Positions 32,802 to 64,000 of a stretch of 64,000 nucleotides of DNA are shown piece by piece. The first letter of the stretch is position 1. Every line of letters starts with the position of its first letter. This DNA is from Candidatus Brevefilum sp. (GTDB lineage: Bacteria > Chloroflexota > Anaerolineae > Anaerolineales > Anaerolineaceae), in the NCBI GenBank assembly GCA_029210815.1, contig JARGGB010000003.1, positions 16,643 through 80,642 of the forward strand, read 5' to 3'. The notes under the pieces are model-generated. The model was not told the DNA's origin and made no database searches. It was given only the letters and a program-made list of their open reading frames with translations. Both the position numbers and the translations under genes were made by a program.

Positions 32802-33650
32802 ATGGAAAACAGCCACCAGCAGGGTAAACAAAGTCCCATCATCTATTTGCGACCGTCCAAAGGATGGTTGTCGATTGATTTTAAGGAATTGTGGCGTTAT
32901 CGGGAATTGATTTTTTTCCTGACATGGCGAGATATCAAGGTGCGCTACAAACAGGCTGTCCTTGGGATTTCCTGGGCAGTATTGCAGCCTTTACTGACCA
33001 CCTTGATTTTCACAGTGATTTTTGGAATTTTACTCAAAACCCCATCACAGGATTTACCCTACCCTTTGTTTTCGATGTCAGCTTTGCTGCCCTGGCAGTT
33101 ATTTTCAACGGCATTACAACGGTCGAGCGTCAGCCTGGTTGGCAACGCCAACTTGCTTACAAAAATTTATTTTCCACGGCTTGCAATACCGCTCTCATCG
33201 GTTTTTGCTGCCCTCGTGGATTTTGCCGTATCTTTCGTGGTCTTACTGCTTGTGATGGCTTATTACCAGTATTGGCCGGGATGGAACATTCTCTGGCTTA
33301 TTCCCATTGTGCTGCTGGCATTGCTGACAGCGCTGGCGGTTGGACTGTGGCTGTCTGCCCTCAACGTGCAGTACCGGGATATTCAACACATGGTGCCATT
33401 CCTTATCCAGGTCTGGATGTATGCGTCCCCCATTGTTTATCCCATTGAGACCATCCCGGAAGGTATTTGGCGCTCATTATACGGCCTTAATCCCATGGTG
33501 GGTGTGATCCAGGGTTTCCGCTGGGCTTTATTAGGCGGCACACCCCCTGATATCACCATGCTGATCTCGATTATTGTGGTCGTGGTGCTTTTAATCAGCG
33601 GTTTGTATTATTTCCGGCGGATGGAAAAGACCTTCGCCGATGTTGTTTAG
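32802..33650 (+). CDS. wzm: Polysaccharide ABC exporter permease (Wzm/TagG type)
   Basis: ABC-2 type membrane subunit of 282 aa with six hydrophobic segments. The N-terminal LWRYRELIFFLTWRDIKVRYK motif and the GISWAVLQPLLTT segment are typical of Wzm/TagG/KpsM permeases. It pairs with the ATPase that follows 6 bp later to move a completed lipid-linked glycan across the membrane. Confidence 0.93.
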   Translation: MENSHQQGKQSPIIYLRPSKGWLSIDFKELWRYRELIFFLTWRDIKVRYKQAVLGISWAVLQPLLTTLIFTVIFGILLKTPSQDLPYPLFSMSALLPWQLFSTALQRSSVSLVGNANLLTKIYFPRLAIPLSSVFAALVDFAVSFVVLLLVMAYYQYWPGWNILWLIPIVLLALLTALAVGLWLSALNVQYRDIQHMVPFLIQVWMYASPIVYPIETIPEGIWRSLYGLNPMVGVIQGFRWALLGGTPPDITMLISIIVVVVLLISGLYYFRRMEKTFADVV

Positions 33651-33656
33651 GAACTT

Positions 33657-34940
33657 ATGTCAGAATTAGCAATACGTGTTGAAAACATATCAAAACAGTA
33701 TCGCATTGGTTTAGCCCAGGAACGCCCAGACACCTTGCGAGACTTGTTAACGATGGGTTTTCGACGTTTCAAACATAAACTAAGCCGAAAAGGGAGCGGA
33801 AGATACGATGACCCCGGGCATATCTGGGCATTGAAAGATGTCTCCTTTGAGGTTGAACGCGGCCAGGTTTTGGGGATTGTCGGTCGGAATGGCGCAGGGA
33901 AAAGCACGCTTCTAAAGATCCTTTCCCGTGTTACGGACCCGACGGAAGGCTATGGGGAAATTCATGGTCGTGTTGGCTCCTTGTTGGAAGTAGGCACGGG
34001 TTTTCATCCTGAACTTTCAGGAAGGGAAAACATCTACTTAAATGGCGCAATACTGGGCATGCGCCGTGAAGAAATTAACCGGAAGTTTGACGAAATCGTT
34101 GAATTTTCCGAAGTTGGTAAATTTATTGACACCCCGGTCAAACGTTTTTCGAGCGGCATGTATTTAAGGCTGGCTTTTGCCGTTGCTGCCCATCTGGAAC
34201 CGGAGATCCTGGTTGTGGATGAGGTTCTGGCGGTCGGTGATGCTGAATTCCAGCGCAAATGCCTGGGGAAGATGAACGATGTCGCCCAGGAAGGCAGGAC
34301 GGTTTTATTCGTCAGCCATAATATGTCCGCCATACTGCGCCTGACGCAAGAAACCATTGTTCTTGACCAGGGCAAGATTGTATTACGGGCGCCAACGCCA
34401 GAAGCTGTGGACCATTACCTGAACATGGGCTTGACCAAGCAGGGGGAACGTTTTTGGACGGAGGAAGAATTGGGCGGCAAATCGGACGCCTTCAAGCCAG
34501 CGGCATTGCGGGTTTTGAACACGGGTGGCAAAGTCGTTGACACCGTCAACGCTGCTGAAGGTTTTTCTGTCGAATTTGAGTATCAGCTAACAGAAGCAAT
34601 CAGCGGTTTAAGAGTTGGTTTGTATATGATGACCACCCGTGGGGAGTATGTTTTCACCACCTTTGATACCGATGATCCTGAGCTTTACCAGGAATACAGC
34701 CTTCGACCCGCCGGGTATTATATGAGTAAATGCCATATTCCGCCGAATTTGATGAATGAGGGACGTTTCATATTGGGCTTGAACGCCAGTGTCTATCGCA
34801 TTCGAAGATATTTTCAAGAAGATAAAGCATTAACCTTCACCGTGGATGCAACAGGTGCCCCGGGGACCCATTGGCCAGAACAGCGATTGGGACCTGTGCG
34901 TCCTCAATTTGACTGGTACATTGAGCACAAAGAAAAATAA
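33657..34940 (+). CDS. wzt: Polysaccharide ABC exporter ATPase with Wzt-type C-terminal domain
   Basis: 427 aa: an N-terminal ABC ATPase (Walker A GRNGAGKSTLLK; LLEVGTGFHPELSGRENIYL; signature KRFSSGMYLRLAFAVA; Walker B ILVVDEVLAVGD), then from about residue 265 a beta-sandwich domain of the Wzt_C kind. In O-antigen exporters this tail recognises the chemical cap on the finished chain and couples chain length to export. A cap-recognising exporter beside nonulosonic acid genes suggests the glycan may be terminated by such a sugar; this is inference. Confidence 0.93.
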   Translation: MSELAIRVENISKQYRIGLAQERPDTLRDLLTMGFRRFKHKLSRKGSGRYDDPGHIWALKDVSFEVERGQVLGIVGRNGAGKSTLLKILSRVTDPTEGYGEIHGRVGSLLEVGTGFHPELSGRENIYLNGAILGMRREEINRKFDEIVEFSEVGKFIDTPVKRFSSGMYLRLAFAVAAHLEPEILVVDEVLAVGDAEFQRKCLGKMNDVAQEGRTVLFVSHNMSAILRLTQETIVLDQGKIVLRAPTPEAVDHYLNMGLTKQGERFWTEEELGGKSDAFKPAALRVLNTGGKVVDTVNAAEGFSVEFEYQLTEAISGLRVGLYMMTTRGEYVFTTFDTDDPELYQEYSLRPAGYYMSKCHIPPNLMNEGRFILGLNASVYRIRRYFQEDKALTFTVDATGAPGTHWPEQRLGPVRPQFDWYIEHKEK

Positions 34941-39678: not shown

Positions 39679-40749
39679 ATGACTTTAATAATTGGAAAAA
39701 ATCTGATTGGGAAAGATCATCCAACGTATTTCATTGCAGATATTGCAGCAAATCACGACGGGAGTTTAGAGCGTGCCAAGCTCTTGATACGTTTGGCAAA
39801 AGAAGCAGGGGCGGATGCGGCGAAATTCCAAAATTTCCAGGCACCAAAGATTGTTTCTGATTACGGATTCACACATATGAATGCCCAGGTTTCTCACCAG
39901 GCAAAATGGGAGAAATCAGTTACCGAGGTATACGCCTCAGCTTCGATCCCATTTGAATGGACACCGATCCTCAAAGAAACCTGTGATGAGGTTGGCATTG
40001 ACTATTTCTCGTCACCCTACGATTTTGAGGCGATTGATATGCTGGATTCCTATGTGCCGGCGTACAAAATCGGATCCGGTGATATCACCTGGATTGAAGC
40101 CTGTGAGAGGATCGCAAGCAAAGGCAAGCCCGTTCTGCTTGCCACGGGAGCGTCTGATATTAGCGATGTTCAGCGAGCAGTGCATGCCATCGTAAACATA
40201 AACCCTCAACTGGTTTTGATGCAGTGTAATACAAACTACACCGCAGCAGATGGCAATTTTGACAATATCCATTTGCTTGTCCTCAAAACCTACCAAAATA
40301 TGTTCCCGCAACTGGTTCTGGGATTATCAGACCACACCCACGGGCATGCCACCGTTCTGGGCGCCGTTGCTTTAGGCGCAAGGGTGATTGAGAAGCATTT
40401 TACTGATGACAATAATCGTGTCGGGCCCGATCATCCCTTTGCTATGAACCCTCAAACCTGGGCGGAAATGGTTACAGCCACCCGCCAGCTGGAGCGTGCA
40501 CTGGGCTCAGGGGATAAATTTGTCGCAGATAACGAGCAGGAGACGGTGATCATCCAGAGGCGCTGCCTCCGGGCTGCCCGGGCAATTCAACGCGGCGAAA
40601 CGATGATGCGCGATATGATCGAAGTTCTCAGGCCGGCAACACAGGGTGCGATCATGCCCTATGAAATTGAAGATCTGCTTGGGTTGAGAGCTATAGAACA
40701 AATTCCTGCCGGGCAGGAATTGCGCTGGACCCAGTTTGGTAATCCCTAA
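39679..40749 (+). CDS. NeuB-family nonulosonic acid synthase with SAF domain
   Basis: Condenses phosphoenolpyruvate with a six-carbon sugar to give a nine-carbon acid (sialic, legionaminic or pseudaminic type). The TIM barrel shows FIADIAANHDGSLERAK, DAAKFQNFQ, YKIGSGDITW and SDHTHGHATVLGAVALGARVIEKHFT, all NeuB hallmarks. The C-terminal antifreeze-like SAF domain (RRCLRAARAIQRGE to the end) is present, which distinguishes it from the second NeuB at 47.8 kb. At 356 aa it has the usual length. Following pseB and a reductase, a pseudaminic-like product is plausible but unproven. Confidence 0.88.
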   Translation: MTLIIGKNLIGKDHPTYFIADIAANHDGSLERAKLLIRLAKEAGADAAKFQNFQAPKIVSDYGFTHMNAQVSHQAKWEKSVTEVYASASIPFEWTPILKETCDEVGIDYFSSPYDFEAIDMLDSYVPAYKIGSGDITWIEACERIASKGKPVLLATGASDISDVQRAVHAIVNINPQLVLMQCNTNYTAADGNFDNIHLLVLKTYQNMFPQLVLGLSDHTHGHATVLGAVALGARVIEKHFTDDNNRVGPDHPFAMNPQTWAEMVTATRQLERALGSGDKFVADNEQETVIIQRRCLRAARAIQRGETMMRDMIEVLRPATQGAIMPYEIEDLLGLRAIEQIPAGQELRWTQFGNP

Positions 40750-47815: not shown

Positions 47816-47847
47816 TTCGGTGATGAAATAAAAATTTGGAGGAAAAT

Positions 47848-48723
47848 ATGACCCGAGAAATCAAGATTGGAAATCGCCTGGTTGGTGCCGGGCATCCAAC
47901 CTATATTATTGCAGAAATTGGCATCAATCACAACGGGAGTGTGCAGGTAGCCAAGGATTTGATCAAGTCTGCAGCTGACGCGGGCGTAGACGCTGTTAAG
48001 TTCCAAAAGCGCACGCCTGAAATTTGTGTGCCCGATCATCAAAAGAGCCAGATGCGAGATACGCCCTGGGGTTATATTTCTTATCTTGATTATCGTTACA
48101 AGGTTGAATTTGGCCAGGATGATTATGAGGAGATTGATGAATACAGCCGATCTCTTGGTATTGATTGGCTGGCATCCTCATGGGATATTCCATCCTTATC
48201 TTTTATAAATTCCTTTGATCCGCCAGCACATAAAGTGCCTTCTGCTTTATTGACGGACCATAAATTATTGAGGGCGATTAAGGATACAGGAAAACCCGTT
48301 ATTTTATCAACCGGCATGTCGACGATGGAGGAAATCCAGGAAGCTGTGGATATCCTGGGGACAGACAAGCTGGTTATTTGTCATACGACCAGCAGCTATC
48401 CCTGCCCGCCAGATGAATTAAACCTGAAAATGATCCAGACCTTGCAAGAACATTTTGACTGCCCGATTGGTTATTCCGGGCATGAGGTCGGCCTGGTAAC
48501 TTCTGCCCTCGCCGTAGCGATGGGTGCCTGTTTGCTGGAACGCCATGTGACCCTTGACAGGGCGATGTGGGGGTCTGACCAGGCGGCTTCAGTTGAGCCG
48601 CAGGGTGTGCGAACCCTTGTAAAATACATCCGTGTTACGGAAAAAGCGCTCGGAGACGGCAAGAAGAAAGTTTATGAGAGCGAACAATCTTCCCTGAGCA
48701 AGCTGCGCCGATACAGCGTTTAG
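47848..48723 (+). CDS. NeuB-family synthase lacking the SAF domain
   Basis: 291-aa TIM-barrel synthase (AEIGINHNGSVQVAKDLIK, DAVKFQKRTPE, HKVPSALLTD, CHTTSSYPCP, GYSGHEVGLVTSALAVAMGACLLERHVT). GGAGG lies 5 nt before ATG 47848; the track's TTG 47836 is rejected. The usual C-terminal SAF (antifreeze-like) domain, which helps close the active site of the partner subunit, is missing. It sits beside a cytidylyltransferase-HAD fusion, so a sugar-phosphate acceptor as in Kdn-9-phosphate synthase is plausible. Confidence 0.87.
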   Translation: MTREIKIGNRLVGAGHPTYIIAEIGINHNGSVQVAKDLIKSAADAGVDAVKFQKRTPEICVPDHQKSQMRDTPWGYISYLDYRYKVEFGQDDYEEIDEYSRSLGIDWLASSWDIPSLSFINSFDPPAHKVPSALLTDHKLLRAIKDTGKPVILSTGMSTMEEIQEAVDILGTDKLVICHTTSSYPCPPDELNLKMIQTLQEHFDCPIGYSGHEVGLVTSALAVAMGACLLERHVTLDRAMWGSDQAASVEPQGVRTLVKYIRVTEKALGDGKKKVYESEQSSLSKLRRYSV

Positions 48724-58167: not shown

Positions 58168-60306
58168 CTACTCAAAGGAAACTTCCCATAAATGAACATG
58201 GGCAATTTCACCATCATGGGGGTTTAAGATCTCGATTTCCAATTGGTCTATTGAAAGGGTAGTTCCAAATGTGAAGCTGATGTCCCTGGCGGTCGGCGAA
58301 CTCCCCACCTGGCGGGTAATCTTTTGGCGTTGATTTCCGCCTGAAACTGCGCTGACGGTGATTTGGGTGGGTGTGCCGCCGATTCTGAGGGTCACTGAAT
58401 TGATCGGCTTCATTTCGGAAAATGTCACAATGAGTTTAAGGGGGTTTGCCTCAAAGGTGCGGATCAGGCTGGTTGGATCACCATCAAATGCAGCCTGGAT
58501 TTCATTAATATCCAGTTCGGGATAGGCAACCTGGACATTTTCACCATGCCATACGACGTCTTCTGAGCGCAGCGTCTGGCGCGCTTCCCGTTCAACAGCC
58601 AGGATTTCTTTGATGTTTGGTACGTATGCCAGTCTGACGAAATAAAAACCTGTACTGCCGTCCGGATACGGAAGGGTTTCTTCTATTCTGACGTCAGTGA
58701 ATTTGCCGGACTCCGCAATCCATGCCAGATCTTCTTCGGTCATGATGAACAGGGTATGCGCATCAAGAGGCTTGTAGCTCAGCCCATAGGCGTTGATATT
58801 GCCCATTTCCAGGTTGGGAATCCCATCCCCGAAAAAGCGCAGGAACACATCGGTGCCGTTCGCCCAGGTTGAACTGACCAGCACCTTTGTGTCTGGTTGG
58901 AACCGGGCAATCTCAACCGCCCGGGTAAAGACCTGCTGCGCCCCGTACTGCATACCGCTCAAGCCGTAATCGGTGTACCATGTCGGGCTGTTTACCAGGG
59001 CGTCGGACAACATCCAGAAGCTGCTCAAAGCCAGGAGCAAAAAGGTGAGGCTACCAAGGATTTGAGGTTTTATATGCCACTGAAGGATAATCCAGGTATA
59101 CACTTTATCAAACCCAATAGCAATTAGCAGTGCTGCTGGGAGGATGAAAACCAAGCCCCGAGTGATGCCCCAATCCACGATGGCAGCACCGCTGGGAGCT
59201 GCAAGTAAAGCAAACAGCAGCACGCGATGTGCTGGGTCTTTGAAGCGCTTGATGGTGTGGACCAGGCCTATGATGAAGAAGGGAAAAGTCCCCCACAGGA
59301 TATGCCCATAGGCTTTCATGGTATGGCGGTCCAGATCGAACTGATTGGAAAACAGCCAGGTGGGAAGCGTAATATTCGGTGCCAGTCTCTCAAGGATTGA
59401 AGGCCTGGGATAAAACCAGTAGAAGGGGTTGAATCCTTTGAGATAGCGAATTGTAAAAGCAGCGAGCTTTTCTGTAGGCGGGATGTTTTTTACCCAATAT
59501 GAATTGAGCAGGCTCAGGTGGTAGAGGAGCTCATTTTTGTGAGTTAGCGTGAATCGGAGGTAAGGGAATGCAAGCAAGCCCAGCAAAACCATGCCAAGCA
59601 GGGCGGTCTTTCTATGCTTGAGGTGATAGCGGGCATCTGCGACCAGCAAGCACAGACCGGTCAGGACGACAATCATCTGTCCCGGACTGTAGGCGTAAAA
59701 AGCAAGCGCACCAAAGATCAGGGCAGGGTAGAGTCTGTTGAGTTTCCCCTGCCTGTAGGACAGGTAGCAATACAAAAAAGGGGCAAACATGGATGCCATC
59801 AGAACAGTTTCAAAGGCTGTTCTTGAATGAAGGAACCAGGCGGGTGTGATAGCAAGCAGGAGCGGTGCAGTCCACCAAAGCCGATTCTTCACGTGGTCCC
59901 GCAAGATCAAACCCAGGAAGATGGGGGTAAACAGGCTCAGGACAGCGGATGTAGCCCGGGTGACCCAGACGGATTTGCCAAACAGCAGGGTGGGGATCAC
60001 CTGGGCATAGACCGAAAGGCTCAGGTTGTACGGACCGCCGTTTTCAAAAAAAGTCGGCAGGAAGAACCCTTGAGGGTCGCGGAAACCGTTGGCAAGCAGG
60101 TCGGCAGCATGCTGGGATTGAATGGCTTCATCGGTGAAAAAGAAGATCGGGAAATCTGGCAGGCGGATCAGTCTAGTGAGGAGGTAGACGGCAAGGGAGA
60201 GAATAAATAAGCCTACAGCCAAGCATTTCTCATTTTCAGGTTCAACTTTGTGCACCTGTTCGTCTGTTATTTGCAGTGAGGGATGGTGGTTGTCATTAAA
60301 GGACAT
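58168..60306 (-). CDS. GT-C membrane glycosyltransferase with C-terminal beta-sandwich
   Basis: 712 aa. About eleven hydrophobic segments fill residues 30-430. The first outer loop has FFFTDEAIQSQHAADLL, with the acidic pair typical of PMT/ArnT-type GT-C enzymes, and later FLPTFFENGGPYNLSL. The soluble C-terminal half ends in a discoidin-like or carbohydrate-binding beta-sandwich (NSVTLRIGGTPTQITVSAVS). Probably glycosylates proteins or lipids from a polyprenyl-phosphate sugar on the outer face. It is divergent from the large secreted repeat protein 755 bp away, a possible acceptor. Confidence 0.75.
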   Translation of the reverse strand: MSFNDNHHPSLQITDEQVHKVEPENEKCLAVGLFILSLAVYLLTRLIRLPDFPIFFFTDEAIQSQHAADLLANGFRDPQGFFLPTFFENGGPYNLSLSVYAQVIPTLLFGKSVWVTRATSAVLSLFTPIFLGLILRDHVKNRLWWTAPLLLAITPAWFLHSRTAFETVLMASMFAPFLYCYLSYRQGKLNRLYPALIFGALAFYAYSPGQMIVVLTGLCLLVADARYHLKHRKTALLGMVLLGLLAFPYLRFTLTHKNELLYHLSLLNSYWVKNIPPTEKLAAFTIRYLKGFNPFYWFYPRPSILERLAPNITLPTWLFSNQFDLDRHTMKAYGHILWGTFPFFIIGLVHTIKRFKDPAHRVLLFALLAAPSGAAIVDWGITRGLVFILPAALLIAIGFDKVYTWIILQWHIKPQILGSLTFLLLALSSFWMLSDALVNSPTWYTDYGLSGMQYGAQQVFTRAVEIARFQPDTKVLVSSTWANGTDVFLRFFGDGIPNLEMGNINAYGLSYKPLDAHTLFIMTEEDLAWIAESGKFTDVRIEETLPYPDGSTGFYFVRLAYVPNIKEILAVEREARQTLRSEDVVWHGENVQVAYPELDINEIQAAFDGDPTSLIRTFEANPLKLIVTFSEMKPINSVTLRIGGTPTQITVSAVSGGNQRQKITRQVGSSPTARDISFTFGTTLSIDQLEIEILNPHDGEIAHVHLWEVSFE

Positions 60307-61027: not shown

Positions 61028-61061
61028 AATTTTGAGAGAACTGATAAGGGAGAGTGATGAA

Positions 61062-64000
61062 ATGAATACGAAATTAAGTTTTAGGACAGCGGGGCTAATG
61101 GCTTATCGCGTGTTGAACTTGCTGCTGATATTGATGATGAGCGTTGGCTCGCCGTTGTCCGTAATTGCACAAACGATTGATGTGGAGGGAACGGAGCCCC
61201 CCGAGGCTGTCCCTGAAGTAGAGCAGCCTGACCCGGGTTTGGAATGGACGGAGCCGATTCCGCCGGATGCGCCGCCAGGCAGTACGATAACGATCAAAGG
61301 CGGCAACAGCGATGGCGCGGCTTATTTATTAGGTGAAACTGTTCATGTGGATGTTGTTGGTCCAAATGGATCCGAGTCGTTCTTTGAGGGAATAGACTAT
61401 TGTGATGCCGTTGTAATGGATGATCCTGCATCAGAATACTTGATCTGGGAATGTGATATCGTCCTGGCTGACAGCCCACTGGCGGTTGGTGACTATTCCT
61501 ATACAGCCACAGGTCTCACCAGCGGCGTTGTAGAAACCGGCATATTCAAAGACGCTTTTTCAGTCACGCCGCAGCATGTGAACCTTGATCCTGGTTATAG
61601 TGTAATCTTTGTTGCTTCAGGAGGATTTGAACCTTACTCCTTTGGTTTGTACCAAGATCAATCTGGTGCAACCATCAATGCAACTACCGGTGAATACACG
61701 GCTGGATTTTCTGGTTTAGGTACGGACATCATTGACATTGTCGAGGTCACGGATGACAACGGGAACAAATCCTATGCATATGTCTATGTTGGCGATATGG
61801 GCAATGGTGAGACGGTCGTGGATGCAGGTTGCGTAGGAGATCTATATGGTGATCCAACCCTGAACTGCACAGCGAATGATGTAGGTCTTGCCAGCGTCAC
61901 CAACATAATCATTGAAGATGATGGTTGTACTGCACCTGGTGATACGGTAACTTTTACTGCTGATTATGAGGTTATGACGACTGCCACAGAACGTTACGAT
62001 ATTGGATTGTATTTTTCCACAGATGGCGATCCAAATGGTGATGGCGCTTACACCGGCACCTGCAGTATTGCAACACTACCCTATGCCCCTGATCCACCAT
62101 GGCTCGATCTAGATGGAACAATTGCCGGTGTTCAGGACACTTGCGGAGATATTGGGACAAAAGCGCATGACAACGGTTCTGTTAATAACCCGGTTTATCA
62201 TTCCATAACATTAACTGTTGAGTGTGTTGACCATACAGGTGATGGCTATCTGGATCTACCCTATGTCGTTACCTGGTCGCAGGGTGCGGATTGGCTTTGT
62301 ACAAGCCCTCTGGATGCAATTGTGGGAACAACGTCAAAATGCAGTGGAGATGCTGGATATGATGTTCCTATACCGGTGCCCGGACAGATCATTGTGGATA
62401 AAGTGACAGTCCCCTCTGGTTCGTCACAGAGTTTTAACTTCTCAATCACAGGATCTGGCAGCTATCTCGATCCGTATGGGGACCCGGTTGAGGTTCCTGT
62501 CAATGATACCTTCGCACTTACAGATGCAGCAGTTCCCTGGGAGAGCGCAAGTTTGTATGCAGGAACATACACATTAGGAGAAACCTTACCAACAGGCTGG
62601 GATTTGACCTCGGTTGTTTGTACGAGTGACTTTGGGGATATTGAAACATATTCAGCTATTGATTTGGATCCCGGTGAGACGGTTACCTGTGTTTTCACTA
62701 ACACTCAAAAAGCCGATGTGACAATTGTCAAGGATACCGTGCCTGACAGTGAACAAGATTTTGATTTCGCTTTTACTGGCGGTCCTGACACAATTAATGA
62801 ACTTTTCTCACTGGATGATGATATCGATGAAACACTCCTTAATTCAAGGCAGTTCTTTGTAAAACCTGGGACCTATGATATTGTGGAGACCCCTGTAACG
62901 AATTATGCCACCAACTGGGCTTGTACTCAGGGTGGCACAGCATGGTTGTCAGGAAGCGGCGGGACCATTGACGATATCGTATTTGCAGCTGGTGGTACTT
63001 ATGTCTGTACCTTTACCAACCAGTTCCAATATGGTTACTTAACCCTGGAAAAGACAGTGGTCAATGATAACGGCGGTACTCTGGGGGCTGGCGATTTCCC
63101 TGTGTACATAAATGGTGAGTTGAAAGCCTGGTCTACGGAGTATCAATTGGAGCCGGGCACATACACTGCCAGTGAAACAGTACAGCCAGGCTATACAGCC
63201 TCTGTTTGGGGTGGTGATTGTTCTGAAGGCGGTGTGGTTACTATTGCAGCAACTGACCATAAGACCTGCACCATTACCAATGATGACCAGGCACCGAGCC
63301 TGACATTGATCAAGTCTGTCACTAATGACGACAGCGGCAATTCAGTCGAAAGTGAATGGACGCTGACGGCGACCGGCACAACCGGATTTAGTGGGTTGGG
63401 ACCTTCTGTAAGCAATGGTGCAAGCTTTGATGCAGGTACTTACGATCTGAGCGAAAGCGGACCTGGTGGTTACACAGCCAGTGACTGGGTATGTGTGGGT
63501 GGAACTCAGGATGATGCTGATACGATCACCCTTGGTTTAGGTGAGTCTGCAACTTGCACGATCAATAACGATGATATAGCCCCGACCTTGAAACTGGTTA
63601 AAGTTGTGAACAACAATGATGGCGGTGATGCGGTTCCTAATGATTGGACCTTATCTGCAACGGCAGAAGCGCCGGATGACGGACATAACTTCAGCAACCT
63701 GGGAGGATCAGGCGTCTTTGAGACGGTGTATGCCAATGTGGCATATACGTTGACGGAGAGCACAGTTGCTGGATACACAGAAGGAACATGGATATGCACA
63801 GGCGGCACGCTGGTTGGCAATGTACTGACCCTTGTTGAAGGCCAAACCGGGGTAACCTGTACGATCACGAATGATGATGTAGCACCGACCTTGAAACTGG
63901 TTAAAGTTGTGAACAACAATGATGGCGGTGATGCGGTTCCTAATGATTGGACCTTATCTGCAACGGCAGAAGCGCCGGATGACGGACATAACTTCAGCAA
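61062..64000 (+). CDS. Large secreted multi-domain repeat protein (3' end outside window)
   Basis: Reading from ATG 61062, the frame stays open for more than 979 codons to the window edge. The ORF track omits it, apparently because no stop is present. The N-terminus has a long signal peptide (hydrophobic RVLNLLLILMMSVGSPLSVI, cleavage near IAQ-T). Residues about 75-290 hold beta-rich domains of unknown type. From about residue 445 on, domains of about 80-100 residues repeat, each with a motif such as GYTASVWGGDCSEGG and an ending C-T-I-T-N-D-D. These look like prealbumin/SpaA-type or DUF5979-like stalk domains with paired cysteines. It is probably a cell-surface adhesin or stalk, or S-layer-associated. 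Gly/Asp/Thr-rich composition suits an extracellular, possibly glycosylated protein. Confidence 0.9.
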   Translation, partial: MNTKLSFRTAGLMAYRVLNLLLILMMSVGSPLSVIAQTIDVEGTEPPEAVPEVEQPDPGLEWTEPIPPDAPPGSTITIKGGNSDGAAYLLGETVHVDVVGPNGSESFFEGIDYCDAVVMDDPASEYLIWECDIVLADSPLAVGDYSYTATGLTSGVVETGIFKDAFSVTPQHVNLDPGYSVIFVASGGFEPYSFGLYQDQSGATINATTGEYTAGFSGLGTDIIDIVEVTDDNGNKSYAYVYVGDMGNGETVVDAGCVGDLYGDPTLNCTANDVGLASVTNIIIEDDGCTAPGDTVTFTADYEVMTTATERYDIGLYFSTDGDPNGDGAYTGTCSIATLPYAPDPPWLDLDGTIAGVQDTCGDIGTKAHDNGSVNNPVYHSITLTVECVDHTGDGYLDLPYVVTWSQGADWLCTSPLDAIVGTTSKCSGDAGYDVPIPVPGQIIVDKVTVPSGSSQSFNFSITGSGSYLDPYGDPVEVPVNDTFALTDAAVPWESASLYAGTYTLGETLPTGWDLTSVVCTSDFGDIETYSAIDLDPGETVTCVFTNTQKADVTIVKDTVPDSEQDFDFAFTGGPDTINELFSLDDDIDETLLNSRQFFVKPGTYDIVETPVTNYATNWACTQGGTAWLSGSGGTIDDIVFAAGGTYVCTFTNQFQYGYLTLEKTVVNDNGGTLGAGDFPVYINGELKAWSTEYQLEPGTYTASETVQPGYTASVWGGDCSEGGVVTIAATDHKTCTITNDDQAPSLTLIKSVTNDDSGNSVESEWTLTATGTTGFSGLGPSVSNGASFDAGTYDLSESGPGGYTASDWVCVGGTQDDADTITLGLGESATCTINNDDIAPTLKLVKVVNNNDGGDAVPNDWTLSATAEAPDDGHNFSNLGGSGVFETVYANVAYTLTESTVAGYTEGTWICTGGTLVGNVLTLVEGQTGVTCTITNDDVAPTLKLVKVVNNNDGGDAVPNDWTLSATAEAPDDGHNFS
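63582..64000 (+). repeat. 303-bp tandem coding repeat
   Basis: The 116 bases at 63582-63697 recur without change at 63885-64000, an offset of exactly 303 bp or 101 codons. The unit encodes one stalk domain beginning P-T-L-K-L-V-K-V-V-N-N-N-D-G-G. The copy continues past the window, so further units are likely. Exact identity points to recent duplication or gene conversion. Confidence 0.9.

Follow-up and report, generated by a model that had tools for sequence, protein, structure and literature searches.

A long frame at the end of the contig

The window, by which we mean the whole stretch of 64,000 nucleotides analysed here from a Candidatus Brevefilum sp. assembly, corresponds to positions 16643-80642 of contig C33 (JARGGB010000003.1; genome G000). 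C33 is 80642 bases long, and window position 64000 is thus the physical end of the contig. The features at this end, which belong to the gene that we call gene 1 and to its divergent upstream neighbour, are as follows.

58168-60306, minus strand: PMT_2 membrane glycosyltransferase, divergent upstream neighbour; found in the same place in a same-genus relative (84% identical) and used as synteny anchor
61062-64000, plus strand: N-terminal 979 codons of gene 1, open at the contig end; the continuation very probably lies on contig C46
61062-61169, plus strand: putative signal peptide (residues 1 to about 36, judged by eye)
61239-61571, plus strand: first Ig-like domain, residues ~60-170, common to relatives in other genera
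61572-61826, plus strand: residues ~171-255, a beta-rich module that looks Big-like by eye, with weakly predicted secondary structure
61827-62381, plus strand: Cys-containing beta-rich module, residues ~256-440, missing from the closest relative
62388-62708, plus strand: prealbumin-fold repeat R1 (SpaA_4), from Pfam and repeat alignment
62709-63023, plus strand: prealbumin-fold repeat R2 (SpaA_4/SpaA_2-like), from Pfam and repeat alignment
63024-63284, plus strand: prealbumin-fold repeat R3 (SpaA_2), from Pfam and repeat alignment
63285-63569, plus strand: prealbumin-fold repeat R4 (SpaA_2), from Pfam and repeat alignment
63570-63872, plus strand: prealbumin-fold repeat R5 (SpaA_2), from repeat alignment
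63873-64000, plus strand: start of R6 (near-identical to R5), ending with the contig

Translation of the plus strand from the ATG at 61062 runs to 64000 without a stop, over 979 codons, and this confirms the open secreted frame of at least that length described in the first-pass annotation. When open-ended frames are permitted, the ORF listing gives the same frame as an ORF of 989 aa at 61032..63998, open at its 3' end. The ATG at 61062 is the more probable start codon, as the closest relative begins with the same MNTKL and signal peptide. The gene had also been described as missed by the ORF track; this reflects a listing convention, since frames running off the end of the source are left out of the default list, and the frame is merely cut by the contig end. 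That end falls inside a direct repeat (63551-63697 versus 63854-64000, 95% identical over 147 nt, spacing 303), and assemblies commonly stop inside tandem repeats. The window covers the N-terminal two thirds of a long, secreted stalk protein of an Anaerolineaceae bacterium (Chloroflexota).

Relatives have a similar signal peptide (..YRVLNL..IL.MT..SPLSV.A), and the first Ig-like domain shares 45% identity over 112 aa with that of G022. Between this domain and the repeats, residues ~171-440 gave no match in a Pfam scan, and the module at ~256-440 is missing from the same gene of the closest relative, where another module sits. A search with this module gave no match in plasmids or viral contigs, and against 400 Chloroflexota genomes nearly all matches fell in the SpaA_4 part. 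Residues 39-560, modelled as a single sequence, reached a pLDDT of 36, at which the middle modules are readable merely as beta-rich, and a PDB sequence search with the window protein returned nothing beyond short matches to designed Kelch proteins, which look like chance and of which no stretch passed by itself.

The rest of the window part is a row of prealbumin-fold repeats of SpaA type, five of them complete and the sixth cut. SpaA_2 (PF19403) matched six stretches with an E-value of 4e-67 and 223 bits against a curated cut-off of 25, and SpaA_4 (PF24514) matched two stretches with an E-value of 4e-15 and 57 bits against a cut-off of 27.3. The giant, beta-rich secreted repeat protein proposed earlier is real, large and secreted, with repeats that score far above chance. 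Each complete repeat has two Cys, as had been noted; the ending CTITNDD given there applies to the later repeats (CTITNDD or CTINNDD), while R1 and R2 end in CVFTN and CTFTN. Moreover, the alignment shows that a Lys in the first strand (strand A), a Glu (GTYTLxE or GTYxxxE) and an Asn in the last strand (TITN) are kept in every complete repeat. Such a Lys/Glu/Asn pattern is the mark of intramolecular isopeptide bonds in CnaB-type domains, and in each repeat we predict one disulfide and one intramolecular isopeptide bond between Lys and Asn, which would lock it.

The missing C-terminus

On contig C46 of the same genome, a minus-strand frame (20605 to 19283) is already open at the contig end and extends for 440 aa. 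It codes for two repeats, one closing with CTITNDD and one with CTITNYY, followed by DUF7507 and an end domain of 153 aa (YWAFTPGFWKNH...FDWSWPVP), and terminates in ..NNGYEYFDWSWPVP-stop (..YFDWSWPVP). In the Pfam scan the DUF7507 match on this part is a single domain, and DUF11 stays below its cut-off. An exact 28-nt repeat-junction sequence is common to C46 and the repeats in the window. In G012, which belongs to the same genus, one contig carries glycosyltransferases, KBL, the PMT_2 glycosyltransferase, gene 1 with one 10-N gap inside its repeats, the end domain (WKNH) and genes 2, 3 and 4; identities to the C33 and C46 genes are 96% for KBL, 84% for the PMT_2 glycosyltransferase and 84, 89 and 70% for genes 2, 3 and 4. 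Because the genes upstream on C33 and those downstream on C46 flank a single gene in G012, we infer that the two contigs join within gene 1, and we place the missing C-terminus of the window protein on C46 with high confidence. The two contig ends have no overlap, and the repeat units at both ends are just ~46% identical, which would leave room for the C46 frame to be part of another repeat protein, the window protein ending elsewhere. This is highly improbable in view of the single gene of G012 and of the distribution of SpaA_2, which outside C33 was matched in the present genome (G000) on C46 only, with two of the three matches in the frame that enters from the contig end.

With the two parts combined, at least ~1,420 aa of the gene 1 product are observed; completing the cut repeats once would bring the length to ~1,500 aa. 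HGW-Chloroflexi-3 (L066) has the same gene set and order on one contig, with gene 1 split into three frames, and HGW-Chloroflexi-2 has the same gene order, with gene 1 again broken at two contig ends. The three frames in L066 (6700-10471) overlap around a repeated TCTDYT(Q)CV, and reflect either misassembly of repeats or genuine frameshifts. The internal repeats of gene 1 cause it to break at a contig end or a gap in three assemblies or more, and as a rule it will be annotated as two fragments or lost. The end domain and the genes that follow it could not be seen in the first-pass annotation, because the contig stops before both.

The WKNH end domain

Loci with the end domain were collected with the patterns PGFWKNH and [SAN]GHDAW[QK]Y. 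The resulting 40 loci lie in Chloroflexota, Acidobacteriota, Actinobacteria, Pseudomonadota, cyanobacteria, planctomycetes and archaea, and 12 of 399 Chloroflexota genomes have the domain. It is C-terminal at 36 of the 40 loci and internal at four; at seven of these 36 the protein is small and consists mostly of the domain, which also occurs alone as a small secreted protein. Because it can stand alone or internally, the domain need not be an anchor. Scans of 36 members gave no consistent match to Pfam, NCBIfam or PHROG models, a search in viral contigs gave no match, and the motif strings were not found in the literature searched.

The AlphaFold2 model built from the 36-member alignment has eight helices (pLDDT 93.7, pTM 0.91), and the best Foldseek match of this fold in the PDB had an E-value of 1.7 and a TM-score below 0.3. 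That PGFWKN is invariant in alignment A2 stems largely from the search seed, and we draw nothing from it; a profile search yielded the variants PGYWKNH and PGFWKNP. A Cys just before TPGFWKNH and another near the end of the domain are both present or both absent in 34 of the 36 members (Fisher p 6e-8, to be taken as a guide only, as the members are related), and this co-occurrence suggests that the pair forms a disulfide clasp. The Anaerolineaceae members are without both Cys. Uncharacterised proteins of Pithovirus LCPAC001 and LCPAC202 (BFVD A0A481Z1W0 and A0A481Z9G6) resemble the fold, with Foldseek E-values of 2e-3 and 4e-3 that are too weak to rely on, at probabilities of 0.99-1.0. A tentative and rather speculative reading is that WKNH is an undescribed extracellular domain family of bacteria and archaea, perhaps also of pithovirus-like giant viruses, with a fold not in the PDB, and that in Chloroflexota it may dock a four-protein surface machine to a sortase-free envelope.

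A cassette of four secreted-protein genes

Gene 1 heads a cassette of four co-oriented genes for secreted proteins, spaced by 19-140 nt, in which it is followed by these three.

Gene 2, ~480 aa: propeller-like, one SpaA_2 repeat, tail IYLPLILK
Gene 3, 582 aa: SBBP-like propeller, C-terminal membrane helix
Gene 4, 1,835 aa: DUF7948, SBBP, nine DUF7507 repeats, tail KLFLPLLLR

Genes 2-4 follow a WKNH end in L065-L070 as well, which together with the present genome makes seven Chloroflexota genomes. Within the genus, the cassette was found in this genome and G012 only, among 16 genomes; because it is rare there, it is not an essential part of the envelope. Between these two genomes the flanking genes and the cassette genes are 70-96% identical, while the stretch that separates the first Ig domain from the repeats holds different modules, and the repeats are of different type. 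This variable middle of gene 1 is consistent with an adhesin that exchanges its outer part, and a drifting structural protein could give the same pattern.

In this genome the tails of genes 2 and 4 match the C-terminal pattern xxLPLxxK/R exactly. We had considered an 'FLPLIxK' tail of these two proteins as something new and dropped the idea, as NCBIfam already names the YLP-box as a putative sorting motif. Against the YLP-box models (NF050076 / NF053834), the HGW-Chloroflexi-2 tails score below the cut-off or just over it, and the two tails of this genome have no match. Many long secreted proteins here end in a tail of the form (F/Y)LP(L/I)(I/V/L)x(K/R/H), on contig C46 at L013:10381-15888 and L013:17696-19144 and at 13 more places in this genome. 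In 12 genomes chosen for high counts, the DNA pattern of such tails had 189 matches versus 21 for the reversed pattern; the matches fetched were mostly long frames, many with visible signal peptides. Within Chloroflexota the tail looks clade-restricted.

A model of the gene 1 product

The gene 1 product is very probably on the cell surface. The reading that we favour, with moderate confidence and from sequence features and comparison, is that it would be a rigid surface stalk or adhesin with an exchangeable middle, the C-terminal domain and the cassette serving to hold or assemble it. The signal peptide would export the protein; the beta-rich module near the N-terminus, which differs between relatives, may be exchangeable; and the row of prealbumin-fold repeats, whose residues are in place, may be stiffened by isopeptide bonds and disulfides. 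DUF7507 and then the compact, all-alpha WKNH domain, placed at this position by synteny, would end the stalk. The N-terminal part might bind, in adhesion, aggregation or envelope structure.

The phylum offers a precedent for surface structures built from such proteins. Litorilinea aerophila (Chloroflexota) has GhlA, a 6,596-aa DUF11 repeat protein that forms surface hook filaments fitting three chains (PMC13319060), and GhpA of Aureispira is cited there as its grappling-hook counterpart. Like these, gene 1 codes for a large, probable surface protein with Ig-like repeats in a member of the Chloroflexota, of the DUF11-type beads-on-a-string kind, and its relatives carry DUF7507/DUF11-type repeats in place of SpaA. 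On an alternative view, gene 1 would build a multi-chain surface filament, grappling-hook-like or pilus-like, instead of single stalks. This is unlikely: GhlA is made of DUF11 throughout, with 49 such domains, has a predicted N-terminal membrane helix and is without a signal peptide, whereas the gene 1 product is much shorter, has a signal peptide, mixed modules and repeats with a single DUF7507 and no very long DUF11 tandem array, and stands in a four-gene cassette. No assembly motif was identified in gene 1.

A further proposal, made in the first-pass annotation, was that the protein is an acceptor for the glycan locus, a surface-glycan locus of the window. By eye, this locus has two frames resembling NeuB-like sialic/legionaminic-acid synthases (39679-40749 and 47836-48723, plus strand) and an ABC-type export pair (32802-34940). 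In this genus gene 1 does adjoin glycosyltransferase genes in two genomes (the window and L030), and Thr makes up 12% of the mature part of its product. The proposal rested on adjacency, and this is not conserved: in HGW-Chloroflexi-2 and -3, which belong to other genera, the same cassette has as neighbours formate-THF ligase, an MFS transporter and a phosphoesterase. Hence glycosyltransferase adjacency does not follow the cassette, and with no glycosylation signal or dedicated transferase shown, it is very unlikely that the gene 1 product is chiefly a carrier of the neighbouring locus's glycan.

Returning to the stalk, we looked for what would hold it at the surface, as the earlier annotation had proposed to look for a sortase, S-layer or other C-terminal anchor. 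No sortase (PF04203) was matched in the ~96%-complete genome, in a search that was positive in control genomes; Pfam scans of the gene 1 parts gave no SLH domain; and the C-terminus on C46, if the join holds, has no LPXTG, hydrophobic stretch or membrane helix, basic tail, xLP-box or YLP-box model match, ending in WPVP. A sortase-assembled or sortase-anchored SpaA-type pilin, suggested by prealbumin-fold repeats with the isopeptide residue pattern and by a SpaA_2 repeat protein of G024 (another genus of the family) that ends in an apparent fused sortase domain, is exceedingly improbable and largely refuted by the absent sortase gene and LPXTG terminus (..YFDWSWPVP). The G024 protein itself (L033:1-3702, contig C229) has by eye a sortase-like end (ITAHVW..LVTCEF..RR), a possible self-anchoring design. 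Compared with known SpaA_2/SpaA_4 proteins, the repeats of gene 1 are above curated cut-offs and have the CnaB-type pattern; they differ in an extra Cys pair per repeat, in the WKNH cap and in lacking sortase and LPXTG. Because the genome gave no sortase and gene 1 has no LPXTG, SLH or C-terminal membrane helix, we infer that the end domain, or partners from genes 2-4, would hold its product at the surface. These partners would be the products of genes 2 and 4, beta-propeller/repeat proteins with YLP-box-like tails, and of gene 3, a propeller that ends in a membrane helix; gene 1 itself is without the YLP-box tail type (NF050076 / NF053834) in which genes 2 and 4 end.

Tad/type IV pili have been proposed as an adhesion system of Anaerolineae, with a role in cell aggregation, in the part of PMC4877987 that was available. 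The proposed aggregation role is the same, and the proteins are unrelated to those of the gene 1 cassette; a four-gene cassette of this type is not described in that part of the paper. Of wider interest are the end domain (~110-150 aa), which occurs across many phyla, has no name and matched neither a family model nor a solved fold, and the conserved cassette; gene 1 itself is an uncommon variant among prealbumin-fold surface stalks. Anaerolineaceae are abundant and mostly uncultured in digesters and sediments, and their surface biology is nearly unknown; what is described here would give the family a conserved, testable four-gene surface cassette.
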